A DNA stretch of 56,254 bases, from NCBI RefSeq assembly GCF_001294535.1, contig NZ_LGIC01000052.1, forward strand, positions 1-56,254. The letters are read 5' to 3'. Source of the stretch: Cypionkella psychrotolerans. GTDB taxonomy: Bacteria; Pseudomonadota; Alphaproteobacteria; Rhodobacterales; Rhodobacteraceae. This document shows positions 9,814 to 56,254 of this stretch, in pieces; within the stretch, counting starts at the first letter, position 1, and every line of letters begins with the position of its first letter. The position numbers and the translations under genes are program-made. The notes under the pieces are model-generated. The model ran no database searches. It was not told the DNA's origin and saw only the letters and a program-made list of their open reading frames with translations.

Positions 9814-10425
9814 ATGTCAGTAAAGCTAGGTATAGATGTCGAGTTACACCAACTTTCGCTTATGGCTCCTGCGGGTTACTTCGTCGGGCTCCATATCCGT
9901 TTCACAGCGCCCTTGTTCACCTTTCAGACCTATGACCAGCGCTGGCTCGACTACTACACCGAAAAAGGCTACGTCCTGCGCGATCCAATGGTAGCCTGGG
10001 GCTTCAGTGCCACAGGCACCATCCGTTGGAGCGATAGTGCCCTGCCAGACCCGTTTGGCCTGTTCACCGAGGCCGCAAGGTACGGTCTGAACTATGGCGC
10101 CACAGTTGCCTGTGGCCCGGTCAAATCACGATCCATTGCCTCATTTGCGCGGGCTGACCGCGAATTCGAGGATCATGAAATTGCAGCCATCGCCACCATT
10201 GTGCACCGGCTGCATGACGTGACAGAGCCACCCGAAGAGCTGACCAAGGCTCAGATCGAGGCTCTGCGCTGTATCGCTGGGGGGGACCGGTTTACTGCCG
10301 CTGCGGCGAAACTGGGTATATCAGAAAGTGCGCTTAAAGCGCGTATCACATCAGCGCGCGTGCGCTTGATGGCGCGCACCACAGCCGAGGCCATTCAACG
10401 CGCAAAGGATTATCGGCTGATCTGA
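9814..10425 (+). CDS. LuxR-family acyl-homoserine-lactone regulator
   Basis: 203 aa, short for the family. The N-terminal ligand domain has the conserved W44-x3-Y48, D57-P58 and W72 of acyl-HSL receptors (TraR-type W/Y/D/P/W set). The C-terminal part from about residue 143 is the GerE-type helix-turn-helix (LTKAQIEALRCIAGG, then KLGISESALKARI); it is looser than usual at the recognition helix. The paired synthase follows 51 nt later. An inverted repeat GCGAAGG-N21-CCTTCGC lies at 9668-9702 in its leader. In Rhodobacter capsulatus the comparable pair is GtaR/GtaI, which controls gene transfer agents; orthology here is likely but unproven. Confidence 0.88.
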   Translation: MSVKLGIDVELHQLSLMAPAGYFVGLHIRFTAPLFTFQTYDQRWLDYYTEKGYVLRDPMVAWGFSATGTIRWSDSALPDPFGLFTEAARYGLNYGATVACGPVKSRSIASFARADREFEDHEIAAIATIVHRLHDVTEPPEELTKAQIEALRCIAGGDRFTAAAAKLGISESALKARITSARVRLMARTTAEAIQRAKDYRLI

Positions 10426-20600: not shown

Positions 20601-20631
20601 AAAAAGGCGCCCCTCCCTGGGCGCCTTTTTC
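20601..20631 (+). terminator. Terminator of the bzt operon
   Basis: AAAAAGGCGCCC, loop CTCCCT, GGGCGCCTTTTT. Long perfect stem with a T-run. Confidence 0.92.
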
Positions 20632-44992: not shown

Positions 44993-45382
44993 TCACGTAT
45001 TCAAAGCAAACAACCGATGCTGCTGCCCCCACTCGGCAGGAACAGCATTCAGCAACATCGCCATCGTTGCTCCGCCAATTTGCCGCCCCTCGACGATCGC
45101 TTCCACGATGTCGGGCGCGAGATTGTTCAGGCGCAGAACCCTGCTCAGATATGATGGGTCGATCTTCTCTGCGGCGGCGAGCTCGGTAATAGTCGCGAAG
45201 GTGCCCAATTCCAAAATCCGCCGCCAACGGAAAGCGCGGGCCAGCGTCTTGATCATCGTGTTGTCGATCTGGCGGCGCGCGATGGGCGCGCCCTCCGGCT
45301 GAACGATAGTCTTTCGTCTGCCGTGCTTGCGCAGCGCCATCGGGACATGAAGCGTGAGAGTTTCTGCCGAAACTTGGCTCAT
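44993..45382 (-). CDS. Recombinase-associated hypothetical protein
   Basis: 129 aa. MSQVSAETLTLHVPMALRKHGRRKT at the start, then a helical part (LAAAEKIDPSYLSRVLRLN) that looks like a helix-turn-helix. It overlaps the recombinase stop as ATGA and is the last gene in the integration operon. I know it only as a regular neighbour of such recombinases. It may be a DNA-binding cofactor; that is inferred from the HTH-like stretch. Confidence 0.72.
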   Translation of the reverse strand: MSQVSAETLTLHVPMALRKHGRRKTIVQPEGAPIARRQIDNTMIKTLARAFRWRRILELGTFATITELAAAEKIDPSYLSRVLRLNNLAPDIVEAIVEGRQIGGATMAMLLNAVPAEWGQQHRLFALNT

Positions 45383-46701
45383 GACGCGCCTCCCGAGACG
45401 GTTGCCATCTCGTGCACAAGTCCGGCAAGTCCATCAACGCGCAAAAGAACATTCATGCCTGCCACCCCAAGATCAATCCGCTCGATCAACAACTGGACGA
45501 TGCGCGCCTGCTCTGCGGGAAAAAGTTCATCCCAGAGCGGATCAAGTTGTATTAACGCCGCGCGCGCATCGCCCTCGACAATAGGCGGGTCGTCCATCTT
45601 CGCAGCCTTCCATGTGCCGATGATGATCTCCGGTTGGCGAAACACCGCCCGCAACTGGTCCACCACAGCGCCTTCGATCTCTGCCGCAGGCACCCGTGCC
45701 ACAGGGCAAGTTCCGGCGCCATGGTTGAGGATAGTCTGACTGACATAGTAGCGGTACCGTCGCGTACCCTTGCAGGTATGTGTGGGTGAGAATGCAGCGC
45801 CATCCGGCCCGAACAAAAGGCCCTTCAGGAGGGCGGGCGTCTCTGCGCGGGTGTTGCTGGCGCGCTTGCGCGGGCTGACCGTCAAGATGGCATGCACCTT
45901 GTCCCATAAGGGTTGATCAATGATTGCAAGGTGCTCGCCGGGGTAGCTTGTGCCCTTGTGCACGGCCTCGCCGATGTAGACCCGATTGTTCAGCATCCGG
46001 TACAGATGGCATTTATTGAGCAGCGCGCCTTTGCGCGTGGTGACGCCGATCTTGCGCAGGGACTGCACGATGGTGGTGGCTGATCCGACCTTGGCAAATT
46101 CCGAGAAGACCATACGCACCGTGGCCGCATCGGCAGCACTCACAACCAGTTTGCGGTCTTTCACCTCGTAGCCCATCGGGGGGCAACCGCCCATCCACAT
46201 GCCCTTCATCCGACTGGCACGGACCTTGTCGCGAATGCGCTCGGCGGTCACCTCGCGTTCGAATTGTGCAAAGCTGAGCAGGATGTTCAGCGTAAGCCGC
46301 CCCATTGATGTTGTCGTGTTGAAAGATTGCGTTACCGAAATGAAGGTGACGCCATGCCGGTCAAACACTTCGACCAGTTTCGAAAAGTCCATCAGCGAAC
46401 GTGACAGCCGGTCGATCTTGTAGACCACCACCACGTCGACCAACCCGTCTTCGATGTCGGCCATCAGCTGTTTCAGCCCGGGGCGCTCAAGGGTGCCACC
46501 CGAAACCCCGCCATCGTCGTATTGATCACGCAGCAGCGCCCAACCCTCGGAGCGTTGGCTGGTGATGTAGGCTTCGCACGCTTCGCGCTGGGCGTGCAGG
46601 CTGTTGAAGTCGCGATCCAGCCCTTCTTCAGATGATTTCCGGGTATAGATGGCGCAGCGCAGTTTGCGCAAAAGATTATCAGGTTTAACGGGCGCGTTCA
46701 T
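45379..46701 (-). CDS. Large serine recombinase
   Basis: 440 aa starting MNAPVKPDN. Resolvase domain: AIYTRKSSEEGLD with catalytic Ser 23 (Y-x-R-x-S), VVYKIDRLSRSLMDFSKL, and FEREVTAERIRDKVRASR. A recombinase domain follows (GYEVKDRKLVVSAADAAT) and a zinc-ribbon-like part (GTRRYRYYVSQ..CP). It should catalyse site-specific integration or excision of the element. It is coupled by ATGA overlaps to its neighbours on both sides. Confidence 0.92.
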   Translation of the reverse strand: MNAPVKPDNLLRKLRCAIYTRKSSEEGLDRDFNSLHAQREACEAYITSQRSEGWALLRDQYDDGGVSGGTLERPGLKQLMADIEDGLVDVVVVYKIDRLSRSLMDFSKLVEVFDRHGVTFISVTQSFNTTTSMGRLTLNILLSFAQFEREVTAERIRDKVRASRMKGMWMGGCPPMGYEVKDRKLVVSAADAATVRMVFSEFAKVGSATTIVQSLRKIGVTTRKGALLNKCHLYRMLNNRVYIGEAVHKGTSYPGEHLAIIDQPLWDKVHAILTVSPRKRASNTRAETPALLKGLLFGPDGAAFSPTHTCKGTRRYRYYVSQTILNHGAGTCPVARVPAAEIEGAVVDQLRAVFRQPEIIIGTWKAAKMDDPPIVEGDARAALIQLDPLWDELFPAEQARIVQLLIERIDLGVAGMNVLLRVDGLAGLVHEMATVSGGAS

Positions 46702-47150
46702 GCGGCCCTCCGGCTGTGTTTGAGACCAAAGAACGTCCAGCCATTCCAACGCGTGCCGGTGATGGCGCGGGCGATCGCCGAAAGCGATTGATAGGGGCGA
46801 CCCTGCCATTCAAACCCGGTTTGCAGCACGGTGACGACATGTTCGACGCCTTGGTGCGCGCGGATCAGTTTGGTGCCTGCAATGGGCATCAGGTCGGTAC
46901 GGATGCGCCGCGTGGTGATATTGCCGCCATCAAGCTGTTCGCCCAAGGCTTCAAGCCGCTTGACGATTTCCGGGTTCAGCCCGCCATAGGCCAGTTCCTG
47001 AATGCGGTAAGCAAGGCGACTTTCCAAGTTCTTGCGGTTATATCTCGGGGGCTCGCTTGCGTAGAGATCGTGCCATTGCGCCTTCAATTCTGATATCGGC
47101 GCGGTCTTCAGCGCGGCCAAGCGGGCGGGGATGGGGTCAGATTTGGTCAT
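46698..47150 (-). CDS. DUF2924 protein
   Basis: 150 aa. Family markers: RLAALKTAPISELKAQWHDL, RLAYRIQELAYGG and the C-terminal YQSLSAIARAITGTRWNG-type motif. DUF2924 genes regularly precede serine recombinases in alphaproteobacteria. The role is unknown. The stop overlaps the recombinase start as ATGA and its own start overlaps the preceding small ORF. Confidence 0.88.
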   Translation of the reverse strand: MTKSDPIPARLAALKTAPISELKAQWHDLYASEPPRYNRKNLESRLAYRIQELAYGGLNPEIVKRLEALGEQLDGGNITTRRIRTDLMPIAGTKLIRAHQGVEHVVTVLQTGFEWQGRPYQSLSAIARAITGTRWNGWTFFGLKHSRRAA

Positions 47151-47349: not shown

Positions 47350-47453
47350 GGCAGACCTTCGGTGGTATCTGCCCGGTAAAAGCCAAGTCGAAGGCGAGAA
47401 TGGGACACTTCTTCTGCGCTATTTCGCGTGACAGATTTCAAGTCGCGGATAGG

Positions 47454-47469
47454 GTGGCCACAGTGCACT
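47454..47469. promoter_or_regulatory. Two abutting 8-bp palindromes, candidate operator
   Basis: GTGGCCAC directly followed by AGTGCACT, both perfect. They lie in the divergent region between the recombinase operon and the 723-aa gene, 15 nt before that gene starts. Confidence 0.4.
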
Positions 47470-47484
47470 ATGCTGGAGAGCTTG

Positions 47485-49656
47485 ATGGTACGCGCGCCGA
47501 CTAGAACCTGCCCGCATTTGTCCAACCTGTTTGACACCGCCCCTCCGATCCTTGTTGCTGCTTTCTTCAAATCGAAGCCTTTTGAACGGTTCACATGGGT
47601 TGAAGGCTACATGCCCCGTTTGGACGGAATCCCAAGCAACGAGCCCGCGCGTGCAATGCTGGCGACTGAAACAAAAATGCGTCTTGGTCCGCTGGAAACC
47701 GAGGCCGCGCGTATTGTCACGATGGCAGGCAACCGCGGCCAGTTTGCGTTGGAGGGTCTGGCCACGACGAAATTGACCGCAGATCGATTGCAAATTCTGA
47801 TTGGCCAGAGGGATGAACTTGCGCGTAGCCTTTGGGCCTATGTTCACGAATCCAGCCTGTTCGATGCTACCGAGAACGGCATGCATATGCGCCTCTACCG
47901 GCGTTACGACCGCCATTATCAGACCTTTATGGCCGAACCCTCCCCGGGAACCGACCGCGATGTCGAAGAAAGTCTGGTCAAGGATTTGCTGGCCGAGTTG
48001 AAAGGGAGCCTAAATCGTGGGGATGGTTATCGAATTGACCGCTTTGATCTGCCTGAAGAGGCCGATGAACCTGCAGCCGTGATGTATTTGCTTTCACATC
48101 CCAGCCCTCCAACCAGCGCGCGGGATATGGACGACGACGGCAATAGTGCTCGGATATATTTCCGCCCGCCTGGCGAGGCGATGATCGTCTACACGCCGTC
48201 GACGGGCAGGGTGCATGTTCGGGCCGGGACGCGTTCACTGCGCCATAAAATCGCTGATGCCTTCATCGAAAAGGTCCTTAGCCAAGAGCCCTCGCGTCAA
48301 CCGGTCGACTTCCAAGCTTACGATATATCGAAATTCAGATCCGAGTTTGATCTGGCTCGGCCTGCGATGGCCGATGTGGAAATCGTGGCGGCCAAGGTTA
48401 TTCAAGTCCAAGTAAGCGTGGAAGACCTTGCAAGCCGACTTTCCGTCTCGACGTCGATAGAGAGTGATCTCGCAACACTCGTCGAAAACCAGCCGGGGCT
48501 GGCGCGCATATTCGAACGGGCGATCGCGACACGGTTTCTTGAAATTGCCGTGCGATACCGGCGCAAGGACAAAGACGAGACACGGACACTGTCATTTACA
48601 GTGACGGATCGAAATACATGCAGCCTTCTCAGCGTCGACGATCCGTTTGAGCGGGTTCTGGGGCATCGGCTATTGAGGCATTGGGGCATTCTTCGGGAAG
48701 GTCGCGCGCCAAGTGAGACTGACGCGATGTCGGTTTTGCCAGCCCTGTTGGAAATTTGGGATATCGGGGCGGAGACGCTCTCCGGGGCTTGGTTGTTTGA
48801 GCGGCAGATCGATCCTCAACTCTTGATCGAAATTGGCTTTCTTGTTCCGTCTGGTGCGGATGACGGCGACGTGATCGACGATGAAGATGGCATCGGCCAA
48901 GCTACCGCCGAGGTTGTAACAAGGTCGGATGGGATCGGTGTCAAAACAATACGGGGCCAAGAGGCTCCCGGTGGCCCCGCTGATCGATACTGCCGCTATC
49001 GCGTTCGAAAAGGTTGGGTTGCGCAGTACGTCCGCGAATTTACTGCCAAATCATTCGATAATTCTGCAGTGCCCGACGATGACGCCAATCTTGTGGCGCT
49101 GGGAACATTGCAGATCGAAGGTCGGGATGTGCCGGTCTACCTTGTCCGCGGGCTTGATGACGAGCGAGCACGCGAGTCCATCGATACAAAACTAAGATCG
49201 CGCCCAGGTGGCAAGGTTGGATTGGTTTTGCAGGCGGGATCTGCGCTGGGCAGCTCTATTTCTGGCAATGTGTTGACGCGCCTGATTGATCACTTGGAGG
49301 GCACGTTGCCCGCAATTGGTTTGAACCTGGCAAGCCTGCGCTCTGTCTACGAGCGCAATTGCGTGTTGGCAAATGGGGGCGCGATCGTGGAATTTGTCCC
49401 GCTGGGCGACACGGCGGGTACGTTATTCGTGCCTAAAAAGGGCAGCATTTACATATCGGGAGAGCATAAAGTTAGGGTGATCCAGCGGCTTGTCGACGCC
49501 CATAACAGCGGCTCGTCCCCAACCGCGAGTGACGATCTGCGAAAAGGGATCTTGGACCAATCTCTGGCAAATATCTTCAATCAGCCGCTTTGGGATAAGT
49601 TGAAGGCAGACTTCATTCGATCACCCAAGAAACCGTTTTGGGAAATCGCCACCTAG
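47485..49656 (+). CDS. Unrecognised 723-aa protein
   Basis: I do not recognise this protein. The start at 47485 has GGAG 8 nt upstream. It is soluble (no signal or membrane helix), acidic and mixed alpha/beta. Notable parts: DRDVEESLVKDLLAELKGSL with a conserved-looking HxxxLYRRYDRHYQTF region (about 128-150); an internal helical stretch (DLASRLSVSTSIESDLATLV), and GKVGLVLQAGSALGSSISGN (about 587-606), then a basic C-terminus. No catalytic motif is clear. It lies divergent to the recombinase operon, where accessory or defence cargo is often found. Confidence 0.85.
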   Translation: MVRAPTRTCPHLSNLFDTAPPILVAAFFKSKPFERFTWVEGYMPRLDGIPSNEPARAMLATETKMRLGPLETEAARIVTMAGNRGQFALEGLATTKLTADRLQILIGQRDELARSLWAYVHESSLFDATENGMHMRLYRRYDRHYQTFMAEPSPGTDRDVEESLVKDLLAELKGSLNRGDGYRIDRFDLPEEADEPAAVMYLLSHPSPPTSARDMDDDGNSARIYFRPPGEAMIVYTPSTGRVHVRAGTRSLRHKIADAFIEKVLSQEPSRQPVDFQAYDISKFRSEFDLARPAMADVEIVAAKVIQVQVSVEDLASRLSVSTSIESDLATLVENQPGLARIFERAIATRFLEIAVRYRRKDKDETRTLSFTVTDRNTCSLLSVDDPFERVLGHRLLRHWGILREGRAPSETDAMSVLPALLEIWDIGAETLSGAWLFERQIDPQLLIEIGFLVPSGADDGDVIDDEDGIGQATAEVVTRSDGIGVKTIRGQEAPGGPADRYCRYRVRKGWVAQYVREFTAKSFDNSAVPDDDANLVALGTLQIEGRDVPVYLVRGLDDERARESIDTKLRSRPGGKVGLVLQAGSALGSSISGNVLTRLIDHLEGTLPAIGLNLASLRSVYERNCVLANGGAIVEFVPLGDTAGTLFVPKKGSIYISGEHKVRVIQRLVDAHNSGSSPTASDDLRKGILDQSLANIFNQPLWDKLKADFIRSPKKPFWEIAT

Positions 49657-51961: not shown

Positions 51962-52158
51962 ACGGCGCAGAGGATCTTGCGCTGCGCCTGACGCGTGAAG
52001 AATTGGCCCATCATTGGCGGGTCAGCGTGCGCACGATTGAGCGGTGGTCAGCTACCGGGCTCTGTCCGCGCCCGCTGCGAATGGGGGGCCGCATACTTTA
52101 CCGCCGCGAAGATGTACTCGCTTGGGAACGCGGGCAAACTGGCGAGGCGCTCGATTGA
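51958..52158 (+). CDS. Small HTH protein, excisionase/MerR-like
   Basis: 66 aa with LTREELAHHWRVSVRTIERW (helix-turn-helix) and a wing GGRILYRREDVLAWE. Typical of excisionase or phage regulatory proteins. Overlaps the preceding stop (ATGA) and its own stop overlaps the next start (TGATG), so it is coupled in the operon. Confidence 0.8.
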   Translation: MNGAEDLALRLTREELAHHWRVSVRTIERWSATGLCPRPLRMGGRILYRREDVLAWERGQTGEALD

Positions 52159-55100
52159 TGGACAAGGCGGGCCCCCATCGGGACCTGCCGAAGCATGACG
52201 AAACGACTGACAGGGTGGCCGAGCGCCGCCCCGAAGGCGTGTCCGTCCCCACTTTTGCAGAAATCGCCATGCGCTTGGTGGACAACGGCTATGAGCCGGT
52301 GCCGATCCTGCCGCATGCCAAAAAGGTGGCCGCAAGAAACTGGACGACGGTTACAATTGACGAGGCACAGGTTGAGGATTGGATAAAGCGATTTGGCCAT
52401 TGCGGCATCGGGCTGCGCACCGGCAAGCTTGTTGCCGTAGATATCGACCTGCTCGATCCTGATCTTGCGCACGACGCTGCAGAGATCACGCGGCTGCATC
52501 TCGGCGATACGCTGCTGCGGGTTGGGCGTTGGCCCAAGCGGTTGCTGCTGTACCGCACGCGCAGCCCGGAGCCAAAGCGGGCTGTTGGCAAGGTGGAGAT
52601 CCTCGGCCTCGGACAACAGTTCGTGGCCTTCGGCATCCACCCCGATACCGGCCAGCCTTACGATTGGCCCTTGGGCGAAAGCCCGCTGGACGTGCCGTTA
52701 GATGCGCTGCCTCTTGTGGATGCAGGGGCAATAGAAACGCTGCTTGCGCCGCTGCAGCCAATTGCCGGGCCTGCACCGTCCGGATCGCGTGTGCCGCGTG
52801 GTGGCGACAATACGCAAAGTGGTCCGATCAGGGCGGCGGACGGACGTGTCATCGACGGGCGCGACCAATGGCTTTCGCTGATCGCCTATCATGGCGTGTA
52901 CGACGCGGTGGATCGCGGCGAGACGCTTGACGCGCATCAGATTGCCGCCGCGGTTTGGCAGCGGTTTTTGGCAAGCACTGATCTCGATCGCCCGAAACAG
53001 GATGGTCGGCATCGATATGGACCTGACGATGCCCTCAAGAAAGTGCGCGACAAGCTGCGCCTTTTGGGTCTTGGCCAGTTGCCGGAGCGCCAAAGGCCGC
53101 GGATAGAACCCAGCTACGTGTTGCCCACACTCCCGGTTGATCGCGCGCGGGTGGAGCTGGACCACGTTTTTGACGCCGCAATGACCGAGATTGCCAACTG
53201 GCATCGGGGTGGGCGTGTGGATGAGGCCCCGTGCTTGGGGGTTCGTGCGACAGTTGGGCTTGGCAAAAGCACAGCTGCTCGACGTCATGTCGTGAAGCTT
53301 CTCGCAACACTCGCGGAAGAAGGGCAACCAGCGCGGTTGCTGAACTTCGTACCGTCGCTGGCGCTGGCCGATGAGACGGCAGCGGCTTGGCAGAGCCTGG
53401 GCGTGGAGGCTCAGGTGCTGCGTGGCTATGAGGCTTTGCAGCTGACCACGCGTGCGCCGATGTGCCGCGATGTACCGTCCGTCAGGGCCGCTGTTGCTGC
53501 GGGCTTAGATATTCAATCCTCGGTCTGCTTCAGGAGCGAAAAAGAGAAATGTGCACATTATGCAGGGTGTGCCAAGCAATCCAATCGTCGCGAGGTTGCA
53601 AAAGTCCAAGTGGTGGTTGCGGCCTATGACGCAATGTACACTGGCTTTGCAGGCGATGCCGAGGAGCTTGCGCTGGTTCTGGTCGATGAAGCCTGCTGGT
53701 CGCGGAGCTTGGAAGAGACCACGGGGCTGACGATCGAGGCGCTTCCGCTGCTTGGGATCACCGGGCTTGGGGGCGCGCGCAAACAAGATGCCCGAGGAGC
53801 CGACATGGCAGATGCTGTGATCTGCCGGCAGCGGTTGTCGGCTGCTCTTGCCTCATTGCCTCTGGGGCAGGTCAGAGCGGCTGATCTGGCGGCGCTGCAC
53901 ATTGATGGCCGCTTTTGCGAGGATGCCTCCCGGTTGGAGGTTGCGGCTTTGGCGCGCTGTGGGCTTGTGCCTGGTCAGAGCGCGGGCGCGCGTAGGGCGG
54001 CTCTCGCCACGAGCGTGCGCCGGGCGCTGGGGCTTCAGATCATTGCTCTTTGGGATGCGCTTGCGGCGCTGTTGCGGGGTGATCCTGCGGCGCTCGCTAA
54101 GGTCTGGCTGGATGGGCCGGCCGCGCAATCTGGGCAAAGGCCGATCCGCATGTGGCGGCGCAAGGCAATGGCCCCTGATCTCATCAGCCTGCCCTTACTT
54201 CATCTCGATGCGACGCTGCGCCCCGAAATCGCCAAGGCCGTGCTGCCAAGGTTAGAGATCGTGACGATCGAGGCTGCGGCACCCCATCAACATGTGCGGC
54301 TGATCGGGGGCGGTTTTGGCATGGGCTCGCTTTGTCCTGCCCCACAAGCAGACGCCGCAGAGATCAATCGTCGCGCCAATCGTTTGCGCGATTGCCTCGA
54401 TTATGTGCGGTGGCATGCCAAGCGGCATGCGCCGCAGCGCTGCCTTGTCATTACCTACAAGGCGATTGAAGCGGCGTTTGCCGATATTCCGGGTGTGGAG
54501 GTTGCACATTACAATGCTGTCGCAGGCTTGGACTGCTGGGGGGACATTGGCTGCTTGTTTTTGATCGGCCGCCCGCTGCCATCATCGGTGGAATTGCACG
54601 AATTGACTGGGGCAGTGCTCGATCACTCTGCTCATGGCAAATATCAAACGTCTGCGGTTGGCATTCTAACCGAGACCGGGCGCAAACTGTCGGGCCAAGC
54701 GATACGCCACACCGACCCTGCCGCAGAAATCTTGCGTGCCGCAATCTGCGATGACGAGGTGATGCAGGCGATGGGGCGGGGGCGTGGGATCAATCGCACG
54801 GATGCAACCCCGCTCGAGGTTCATCTGATGGCCCACGTTGTTTTGCCCCTCGCATATGATCGTGTGATGGCTTGGGAGATGGTTTGTCCTGATATTGTGC
54901 AGCGCATGCTTCTGTGCGGGATGGCGGTGGATAGCCCTGCCGACGCGGCAATGCTTCATCCGGGATTATTCTCGGGGCAGGAGCAGGCTAAGAAAGCATT
55001 CCAACGAGGGGCATTTAAGGGACATTTCCCTATAAGAGGTACCTATAGGGAAATGTCCCTTAAATCGGCTGCATATCGACGGTCCGGCCGCGGTCGTGGC

Positions 55101-55205
55101 TGGCAACGGGCCTGGTGGGTAAACGGCTCTGCCGACGAACGGCGGGCGCAAGTCGAGGCAGCCCTTGGGGCGTTGGCCGAGTGGGTCTCCGACATTCCTG
55201 AGTAG
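52158..55205 (+). CDS. Prim-pol primase with C-terminal ATPase
   Basis: 1015 aa. N-terminal bifunctional primase-polymerase domain: VAVDIDLLD with D95/D97, FGIHPDTGQ with H161. About residues 360-520 show an ATPase with GLGKST (367-372) and LVLVDEA (506-512). Four cysteines between them (C436, C457, C465, C471) recall the Fe-S or zinc insert of XPD/DinG helicases, though this is inferred. It should start and unwind replication of the element. A perfect inverted repeat (55013-55065) is embedded in codons 952-970. The start at 52158 follows the HTH stop; an extended reading to 52044 is overlap. Confidence 0.82.
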   Translation: MDKAGPHRDLPKHDETTDRVAERRPEGVSVPTFAEIAMRLVDNGYEPVPILPHAKKVAARNWTTVTIDEAQVEDWIKRFGHCGIGLRTGKLVAVDIDLLDPDLAHDAAEITRLHLGDTLLRVGRWPKRLLLYRTRSPEPKRAVGKVEILGLGQQFVAFGIHPDTGQPYDWPLGESPLDVPLDALPLVDAGAIETLLAPLQPIAGPAPSGSRVPRGGDNTQSGPIRAADGRVIDGRDQWLSLIAYHGVYDAVDRGETLDAHQIAAAVWQRFLASTDLDRPKQDGRHRYGPDDALKKVRDKLRLLGLGQLPERQRPRIEPSYVLPTLPVDRARVELDHVFDAAMTEIANWHRGGRVDEAPCLGVRATVGLGKSTAARRHVVKLLATLAEEGQPARLLNFVPSLALADETAAAWQSLGVEAQVLRGYEALQLTTRAPMCRDVPSVRAAVAAGLDIQSSVCFRSEKEKCAHYAGCAKQSNRREVAKVQVVVAAYDAMYTGFAGDAEELALVLVDEACWSRSLEETTGLTIEALPLLGITGLGGARKQDARGADMADAVICRQRLSAALASLPLGQVRAADLAALHIDGRFCEDASRLEVAALARCGLVPGQSAGARRAALATSVRRALGLQIIALWDALAALLRGDPAALAKVWLDGPAAQSGQRPIRMWRRKAMAPDLISLPLLHLDATLRPEIAKAVLPRLEIVTIEAAAPHQHVRLIGGGFGMGSLCPAPQADAAEINRRANRLRDCLDYVRWHAKRHAPQRCLVITYKAIEAAFADIPGVEVAHYNAVAGLDCWGDIGCLFLIGRPLPSSVELHELTGAVLDHSAHGKYQTSAVGILTETGRKLSGQAIRHTDPAAEILRAAICDDEVMQAMGRGRGINRTDATPLEVHLMAHVVLPLAYDRVMAWEMVCPDIVQRMLLCGMAVDSPADAAMLHPGLFSGQEQAKKAFQRGAFKGHFPIRGTYREMSLKSAAYRRSGRGRGWQRAWWVNGSADERRAQVEAALGALAEWVSDIPE
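55013..55065. repeat. Perfect 22-bp inverted repeat inside the prim-pol gene
   Basis: Arms 55013-55034 and 55044-55065 are exact complements (left arm begins ATTTAAGGGACATTTCCC) with a 9-nt loop AGAGGTACC. It is AT-rich compared with the gene and lies wholly within its coding sequence, near the 3-prime end. Both strands read like KGHFPI..YREMSLK. Candidate ssDNA initiation or recognition hairpin; a REP-like insertion is the alternative. Confidence 0.9.
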
Positions 55206-55213
55206 CGGCCAAC

Positions 55214-55253
55214 ATGTCGCGCCATGTCGTCAATTGTCATTTAATGTCGTAAA
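55214..55253 (+). repeat. 10-bp phased repeat array (ATGTCG)
   Basis: ATGTCG at 55214, 55224 and 55244, and a degenerate TTGTCA at 55234: four consecutive 10-bp units starting 9 nt past the prim-pol stop. ATTGTC-N15-GACAAT also forms a dyad over the last units. A weak -10 (TATACT) lies downstream at about 55276. Candidate iteron array or operator. Confidence 0.6.
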
Positions 55254-55338
55254 GACAATAGCTTAAGCCCATGATATACTGTCGCCACGAGATGTTTTAC
55301 CCCCGCGATTTTGCAAAGGGGGGATCGGAGATCGAGCG

Positions 55339-56254
55339 ATGGTGGCAACGGTGATGAGCGAAAGTGGCGGCGGAACAGCCCCGGGTGCGGAGTTGGACCA
55401 CGCCAGCGGCAAGGCCTTGCACATCACCTACCGCCCGATCGGCAATCTGATCCCCTACGCGCGGAACGCCCGCACGCACAGTCCGGCGCAGGTGGGGCTG
55501 ATCGCAGGCTCGATCCGGGAGTTCGGCTTTACCAATCCGGTGCTGGTCGATGGGGAAAACGGCATCATCGCAGGCCATGGCCGGGTCCTCGCGGCGCAGA
55601 AGTTGGGGCTGGCTACGGTGCCGGTGATTGAGCTTGCCCATCTCACCGAGGCACAAAAGCGCGCGTATATTCTTGCCGACAATCGCTTGGCCGAACAGGC
55701 GGGGTGGGACGCGGACCTGCTTGCGCTTGAGATGGGGGATCTTGAGGCCCTGGGCGTTGAACTCACCGACCTTGGCTTTGAAAGTGCGGAAATCGATCGG
55801 TTGCTCAGGGGTGATGCGACGGATCCGCGCGAAGAGGTTATTCCCGAGCCACCTGCAGTTCCGATCTCGCAGCTGGGTGATCTGTGGTGTTTGGGCACGC
55901 ACCGGCTCATTTGCGGCGATGCCACCGATGCCGCGGCGGTTGCTCTCTTGCTTGGCGGTGTTGTGCCGCATCTGATGGTCAGCGATCCGCCTTATGGTGT
56001 GATGTACGATCCAAGCTGGCGCAACAAGATCGGCGTGTCTGAGACCAAACGCGTTGGTAAGGTGATGAATGACGACCGCGCCGACTGGCGGGCAGCGTGG
56101 GCGCTGTTTCCGGGGGATGTGGCGTACGTTTGGCATGGGGCTCTGCATGCCACCACAGTGGCCGACAGCCTCGCGGCTGCAGGCTTTGCGGTGCGCAGCC
56201 AAATCATCTGGGCTAAGGAGCGCCTGGTGCTGAGCCGGGGCGACTATCACTGGC
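55339..56254 (+). CDS. ParB-like DNA methyltransferase (partial, right edge)
   Basis: The first about 305 codons; runs off the window. N-terminal ParB/Srx-like domain (YRPIGNLIPYARNARTHS, GLIAGSIREFGFTNPV, GIIAGHGRVLAAQKLG). The methylase domain opens with WCLGTHRLICGDAT (SAM site) and DPPYGVMYD (DPPY at about 217-220), an N4/N6 methyltransferase. Such ParB-methylases regularly stand before terminase genes in prophages, which may lie just beyond the edge. GGAG lies 9 nt upstream of ATG 55339; 55354 is an alternative. Confidence 0.87.
   Translation, partial: MVATVMSESGGGTAPGAELDHASGKALHITYRPIGNLIPYARNARTHSPAQVGLIAGSIREFGFTNPVLVDGENGIIAGHGRVLAAQKLGLATVPVIELAHLTEAQKRAYILADNRLAEQAGWDADLLALEMGDLEALGVELTDLGFESAEIDRLLRGDATDPREEVIPEPPAVPISQLGDLWCLGTHRLICGDATDAAAVALLLGGVVPHLMVSDPPYGVMYDPSWRNKIGVSETKRVGKVMNDDRADWRAAWALFPGDVAYVWHGALHATTVADSLAAAGFAVRSQIIWAKERLVLSRGDYHW

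Follow-up and report, generated by a model that had tools for sequence, protein, structure and literature searches.

Origins of replication that lie inside the gene of their initiator are familiar from lambda O and P4. Further examples are oriV of repABC replicons, located in repC (PMC3155836), and oriL of P1, located in repL (PMC9948254). The known system nearest to the one described here is pRN1, in which a stem-loop near the gene for ORF904, a prim-pol/superfamily 3 (SF3) helicase, is required (PMC4234260). This stem-loop is poorly conserved in sequence but has a conserved fold, one mutation of its stem stopped replication until symmetry was restored, and the Bordetella phage BIP-1 has the same layout (PMC4234260). 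The subject of this analysis is a long inverted repeat, called the dyad below, within the coding sequence of a primase-helicase gene of Cypionkella psychrotolerans; the window is the whole stretch analysed, 56,254 bp of contig NZ_LGIC01000052.1. Probably, the primase-helicase of the element recognises the dyad as its own target in double-stranded DNA, and the dyad most likely serves the element as replication origin.

The locus resembles pRN1 in that the replication protein contains a Prim-Pol domain (PF09250) and in that a long symmetric element accompanies the replication gene, inside the gene here and after it in some distant relatives. It differs in its helicase, which is of superfamily 2 (SF2) and DinG/XPD-like whereas that of pRN1 is SF3, and in the position of the symmetric element, which in pRN1 lies downstream of the gene; moreover, PMC4234260 reports that no sequence-specific binding was found for pRN1, whereas residues and bases covary here. 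UL9, the origin-binding protein (OBP) of herpes simplex virus 1 (HSV-1), and its oriS offer another likeness, with an SF2 helicase, a C-terminal sequence-specific domain and inverted boxes around an AT-rich spacer, but oriS is situated in the repeats flanking the short unique region and not in the OBP gene, and UL9 has no primase fused to it (PMC12543377). Homology to the C-terminal domain of UL9 was not found, the PDB giving no match at E <= 0.001, and the analogy is one of working only. The repABC oriV and P1 oriL share the position within initiator coding sequence, with binding suggested in the present case by covariation; these origins rest on AT-rich regions and others in PMC3155836 on iterons, whereas the site found here is one long dyad, with covariation between its boxes and a helix. 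CyRepA also combines a primase-like domain with a DEXD helicase domain and is needed for plasmid replication (PMC10079941, PMC10899382, PMC9978351), but the pSYSA region searched held no inverted repeat of at least 12 bp within 60 nt, and DUF3854 was not among the Pfam families of the window protein or of the 15 helicase stretches scanned. CyRepA, too, is an analogy only. The run-off origin of Bartonella belongs to a lambda-O-like module (PMC3610622) and was set aside as different from the dyad-helicase system. No recognisable description of the dyad element was found in the open-licence literature, of which mostly titles and the starts of abstracts were covered, and this is weak evidence of novelty.

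The original prediction, made from the letters of the window, had described two perfectly paired 22-bp arms around a 9-nt loop, traversed in frame and unlike the surrounding gene in composition. An inverted-repeat search recovered exactly this structure, with two 22-nt arms (55013-55034 and 55044-55065) that are 100% complementary and 9 nt apart; the reading frame stays open across it (...QRGAFKGHFPIRGTYREMSLKSAAYRR...) within an open reading frame (ORF) of 1053 aa, and the G+C content is 36% in the dyad against 62% in its gene. The dyad is the sole perfect inverted repeat in the window with arms of more than 12 bp and a loop of at most 20 nt, the runner-up being one of 12 bp at 20601, while the longest in six base shuffles of the window was 11 bp.

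Homologues were sought, at E-value limits that differ among the searches, in 394 genomes of the family (12 matches), 385 of the class (12), 390 of the order (33) and 82 in the order of genome G737 (8), as well as in viral contigs (37 loci) and plasmids (20 records). The viral loci came from an alignment-based scan, a single-sequence scan having given 0 matches; when the family search was redone with a wider alignment, 10 of the 394 genomes matched, and in a sample of the phylum 2 of 319 did, one being the genome that contains the window and the other a genome of the same class. From these loci, 65 distinct helicase genes (51 clusters at 90% identity) had 420 nt of sequence after the helicase motif QAMGRGRGINR, which we take to be motif VI, and a form of this motif that fits one regular expression; all of them are in loci from a protein or genome search and none was drawn in by the dyad pattern alone. 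An inverted repeat scoring at least 13 is present at +180 to +420 nt past motif VI in 65 of the 65, a score that is reached by 2 of the 192 control windows taken upstream and by none of the 65 shuffles. The dyad starts +233 to +348 nt past the motif, while the coding stretch beyond it is variable, with a median of 104 codons, a maximum of 166 and 46 in the window. The sequences themselves are diverse: the window's group has ATTTAAGGGACA arms, another group has GAGGAGTGTGACA or GAGGAAGGGGACA arms with a CTATTATAG core, and further versions occur in Bradyrhizobium, Methylorubrum and Roseomonas plasmids. In each of four whole plasmid records, a search for half-sites with up to 4 mismatches gave a single dyad.

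In each half-site, a 3-bp spacer separates an outer box of about 12 bp from an inner box, which is CCCTATA or a comparable core of the TATA type, and the pairing between the two arms is maintained in blocks. In the window's group (20 distinct dyads), Watson-Crick pairing at the outer positions 5-12 is seen in 154 of 160 cells, compared with 126.1 +- 3.65 in 2000 permutations (maximum 139); the spacer pairs 13-15 reach 13 of 60 against 17.1 expected, and the inner pairs 16-21 reach 113 of 120 against 106.5. The outer pairs 1-13 of the second group (19 dyads) are Watson-Crick in 235 of 247 cells, against 209.2 +- 5.5 with a maximum of 226. Both groups were chosen by regular expressions that fix some letters of the outer box (for the window's group, bases 9, 11 and 12); L023 and L044 were not taken into the window's group, and L049 and L058 fall outside the second. 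A paralogous primase-helicase gene on contig C89 of the same genome has a diverged dyad in the same place, where the middle of the outer arm reads CCGTCA instead of the window's GGGACA and both arms are altered together. The covariation of the arms implies that the symmetry of the dyad is itself under selection, in two paired blocks whose distance, by our own count, is about one turn of the helix. The reading frame of the inner box differs, being CCT-ATA in the window and CCC-TAT in pCMU02; the predicted ORF ends inside the dyad in the distant relatives L107 and L110 and 7-29 nt ahead of it in L097, L098, L103 and L104, and the dyad lies beyond the ORF in L109, one of the 65 genes with motif VI. 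As the frame varies and the dyad sometimes extends across or past the end of the ORF, it is the DNA that is conserved and not the peptide, and, less certainly, it is conserved as DNA rather than RNA.

The part of the protein that would read this DNA is suggested by covariation between residues and bases. When 861 aligned columns from 21 proteins of the window's group were ranked, with the codons inside the dyad set aside, residue 984 was the best column for base 10 of the outer box (z 7.0, and 1.8 for base 8) and residue 983 the best for base 8 (z 7.6, and 1.4 for base 10). Residue 980 has z 4.6 and 3.2 for bases 10 and 8, and in the structural model residues 980, 983 and 984 share one helix (979-988) just before the codons of the dyad, with residues 985-990, closer to the dyad, below z 2 for both bases. 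In a comparison of 55 proteins, 8 rows have C at base 8, and residue 983 is Q, D or E in every one of them, while in 46 of the other 47 rows this residue is K or R; base 10 is T in 8 rows, 0 of which have K at 984, and A in 45 rows, 27 of which do. For each of the 55 rows the residues of the helix were taken by eye, with only the left arm used outside the window's group, and ten boxes were set by eye (L015, L021, L022, L025, L027, L043, L044, L061, L067 and L072), that of L043, whose arms differ, being set as GGGT. A quick tree of the 55 proteins, built with the helix-dyad region excluded, requires at least 24 box changes and at least 27 helix changes, and in 10 of 11 independent pairs on it a change of the KK helix goes along with a change of the GGGA box, the opposite never occurring (p 0.002). 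For this test, 6 of the 60 in-frame dyads were excluded because their boxes are unalignable (L068, L073, L074, L075, L076 and L105) and L044 was added. Sequences met later follow the same rule, namely L135 (KL/GGGT), L139 (QK/GCGA), L162 (DH/CCGC) and the L117-L121 lineage (KK/GGGGGACA); the box of L095 (QK) is not comparable.

On the grounds of this covariation, binding of the primase-helicase to the dyad is likely, and comparison with the known systems suggests an origin as its function. In the mechanism we propose, the C-terminal domain would act as a dimer with one copy at each outer box, where residue 983 would contact base 8 and residue 984 would contact base 10; meanwhile the inner CCCTATA boxes and the AT-rich middle would melt, after which the SF2 helicase would unwind the DNA and the Prim-Pol domain would prime. 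The origin account is supported by the single dyad per plasmid record (n=4), by pCMU02, where no known Rep family was found in 10 of the other 33 annotated proteins, and by the precedent of pRN1. An origin or recognition site within the gene that acts on it had been suggested in the original prediction and fits the evidence well; its idea of a primase hairpin acting on single strands does not, the signal being that of a double-stranded dyad. A homologue in R. haemaphysalidis is annotated with TOPRIM and a Bradyrhizobium homologue has its primase-like gene separate, and both carry a dyad, which argues for a double-stranded dyad read by the C-terminal domain and not for a primase hairpin. A broader reading, held with somewhat less confidence but still favoured, is that a broad family of primase-helicases from alphaproteobacterial phages and plasmids carries its own origin in the codons beside the recognition helix, so that reader and target form one short cassette whose specificity is legible (983 to base 8, 984 to base 10) and has changed many times.

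If this is true, the coding DNA of the gene is the target of its own product, and the dyad provides an origin address at the sequence level for a set of prophages, phage-plasmids and small plasmids (including pCMU02) whose annotation is poor. The recognition code would predict which element's helicase reads which origin, and the side-by-side arrangement of reader and target would explain how replicon specificity shifts with helicase cores that are nearly identical. Origin recognition by DinG-like helicase-primases would also become directly testable.

A number of observations weigh against this account, and some of them lend themselves to other explanations. The prediction had called for a look at homologues without the repeat; none of the 65 genes with motif VI lacks it, but of 31 distant or partial loci only 20 have a comparable dyad, as judged, and 11 have none at score 13. 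The right half-site of plasmid p546-7 has 4 mismatches, genome G253 carries two elements (L012 and L020) with the same dyad, and the model of the C-terminal domain, compared with the PDB, has no match at E <= 0.001. The z-scores treat sequences as independent, and columns 129 and 742 exceed z 4.8 for base 10, with column 1018 above 4; 15 RQ rows have A at base 10 without a lysine, and in L094 a G at base 8 goes with E983. On the tree, tests of single residues (5 pairs each, 4.5 and 4.7 concordant on average) give p >= 0.06, and from the side of the residue, a change at 984 comes without one at base 10 in 6.2 of 11 pairs. Recombination could move helix and dyad together, given that the two lie within about 30 nt of each other, and boxes do differ between near-identical helicases such as L008/L039 and L021/L023; that the two covary only as neighbours swapped together, without contact, is nevertheless unlikely, since 983 tracks base 8 and not base 10, 984 does the reverse, and the residues nearer to the dyad track neither. 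A hairpin in the mRNA that serves processing, stability or translation control would account for the long perfect stem, and RNA pairing would likewise give covariation of the arms. G.T mismatches on the sense strand, which would still pair in mRNA, outnumber A.C mismatches, which would pair only on the other strand, by 7 to 2 in the arms of the window's group (hand-summed counts), but the ratio is 1 to 6 in the second group and 8 to 8 in both together. Since pairing is mostly absent from the spacer between the two blocks, residues of the helix covary with bases, and the dyad lies past the end of the ORF in some relatives, an RNA hairpin is disfavoured and very unlikely. The in-frame position of an AT-richer palindrome would also suit a mobile unit of the repetitive extragenic palindromic (REP) kind inserted into the gene, as the prediction had alternatively supposed. 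The chance of this is practically nil: a search of the genome with a 181-bp stretch found only the window itself and the paralogue dyad on C89, so the dyad is not a multi-copy repeat, and in two pattern scans of viral contigs every placeable complete dyad with family outer arms lay with a helicase gene. The REP unit is thus rejected for want of scattered copies and for the single position in 65 of 65 homologues with motif VI, a conservation that already refutes it by itself.

Covariation shows recognition and not origin function, and GC skew in four plasmids does not clearly point at the dyad. The helicase might instead bind the dyad as a control site, be it for autoregulation, for copy-number or incompatibility control, or for helicase loading in repair or packaging. 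We regard this as not very likely, as the dyad is about 3 kb past the start of the gene in the window, it keeps a nearly constant distance from motif VI across the 65 genes although the coding part behind it differs in length, each plasmid record examined has a single copy, and the layout of pRN1 has a required stem-loop beside the prim-pol gene (PMC4234260). An operator of the next gene is disfavoured as well, because coding goes on past the dyad for the lengths given above. Recombination, packaging or telomere resolution would be a further use for such a site. The order of outer box, spacer, inner box and AT-rich centre resembles that of protelomerase targets, and a gene for the terminase small subunit follows the helicase gene in the R. 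mucosa plasmids. The protelomerase family PF16684, however, occurs in 1 of 24 dyad-bearing genomes and there on a different contig, contigs read through the dyad, and pCMU02 has the dyad without an annotated terminase; a function of this kind is highly improbable, and the telomere-resolution site, considered for its architecture, was rejected on the PF16684 result. Apart from this, a protein of the protelomerase family (PF16684, 3.1e-25) was seen at G697:C176:4398-4958, in a genome of the same class. The coordinates of the dyad and of the surrounding features are collected in Table 1.

Table 1. Positions in the window of the dyad, its parts, the primase-helicase gene and neighbouring genes
Feature	Position	Strand	Evidence
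Dyad, two inverted half-sites flanking a 9-bp centre	55013..55065		inverted-repeat search; same place in homologues
Left outer box ATTTAAGGGACA; base 8 = 55020, base 10 = 55022	55013..55024	+	covarying arm
Left 3-bp spacer	55025..55027		pairs 13-15 in homologues not under pairing
Left inner box CCCTATA, conserved	55028..55034	+	homologue comparison
Centre between half-sites, length variable among homologues	55035..55043		inverted-repeat search and homologues
Right inner box	55044..55050	-	inverted repeat and pair covariation
Right 3-bp spacer	55051..55053		inverted repeat and pair counts
Right outer box; partner of base 8 = 55058, partner of base 10 = 55056	55054..55065	-	covarying arm
Primase-helicase gene: N-terminal Prim-Pol, SF2 (DinG/XPD-like) helicase, C-terminal DNA-binding-like domain	52044..55205	+	ORF, Pfam, Foldseek
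Prim-Pol domain, residues 76-217	52269..52694	+	PF09250 8.3e-10
Helicase motif VI QAMGRGRGINR, anchor for dyad distance	54765..54797	+	homologue comparison
Putative recognition helix codons, residues 979-988 QEQAKKAFQR	54978..55007	+	model m6492e8644ffa residues 577-586; residue-base covariation
Codons of K983 and K984	54990-54992 and 54993-54995	+	coordinate check
Serine recombinase near one element end	45379..46809	-	PF00239 2e-38; phrog_95 integrase 9e-101
ParB-like domain/DNA methyltransferase gene, downstream, runs off contig	55339..56253	+	phrog_498 5.9e-92

The predicted structure has a mean predicted local distance difference test (pLDDT) score of 88, and the best Foldseek matches of residues 403-1053 are CasDinG, DinG and XPD, the three highest-ranked having E 2.6e-10 to 4.1e-10 and TM values of about 0.4-0.5. 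In the model, the codons of the dyad correspond to a low-confidence stretch between the helix 979-988 and a beta hairpin. Four conserved cysteines are located at residues 474-509 (window 53463-53570); one is invariant and three are nearly invariant in alignment A1, and three of the four reach 90% in the wider alignment A2. Iron-sulphur helicases of the XPD/DinG kind have such cysteines as well, and the four agree with the Foldseek match to DinG/XPD. Toprim_3 was found in 1 of the 15 helicase stretches scanned.

Viral contigs were also scanned by DNA pattern alone. The pattern ATTTAANNGNCANNNCCCTAT matched 31 stretches, and motif VI was present in 8 of 8 with both half-sites in inverted order but in 3 of 23 with a single match, a fourth of the latter (L162) showing the C-terminal region of the helicase. 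The core pattern CTATTATAGN{0,8}CTATAATAG matched 49 stretches, of which 16 have family outer arms, 15 of these with motif VI and one (L196) with its dyad at the edge of the stretch; the other 33 have neither the family outer arms nor motif VI. Tandem or nested CTATTATAG/CTATAATAG palindromes were noticed in L174, L182, L193 and L211, viral contigs without the helicase motif. On the phage contig L053, a second dyad is found at about 9912-9971, approximately 2 kb downstream of the dyad in the helicase gene and outside that gene.

The primase-helicase gene of the window is part of an integrated element that also includes a serine recombinase, a DUF2924 gene and a ParB-like/methyltransferase gene. 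A part of the latter is 95% identical over 693 nt between C52 (55416-56108) and C89 (L003 2406-3097), an identity that may explain why the contig ends nearby. Several TGTCG-like direct repeats, found by eye, precede this gene in the window (55206-55338), with a similar array before its copy in L003, and these are possibly operator sites. Also in the element, a 742-aa ORF (window 47428-49656) without a Pfam match belongs to phrog_37634, a phage family of unknown function. Among the plasmids, L023/L032 (NZ_CP015609.1) is labelled Bacillus safensis and has a G+C content of 65%, but its helicase is nearly the same as the one encoded by a Roseomonas mucosa plasmid, which may point to a wrong label or a mixed culture.
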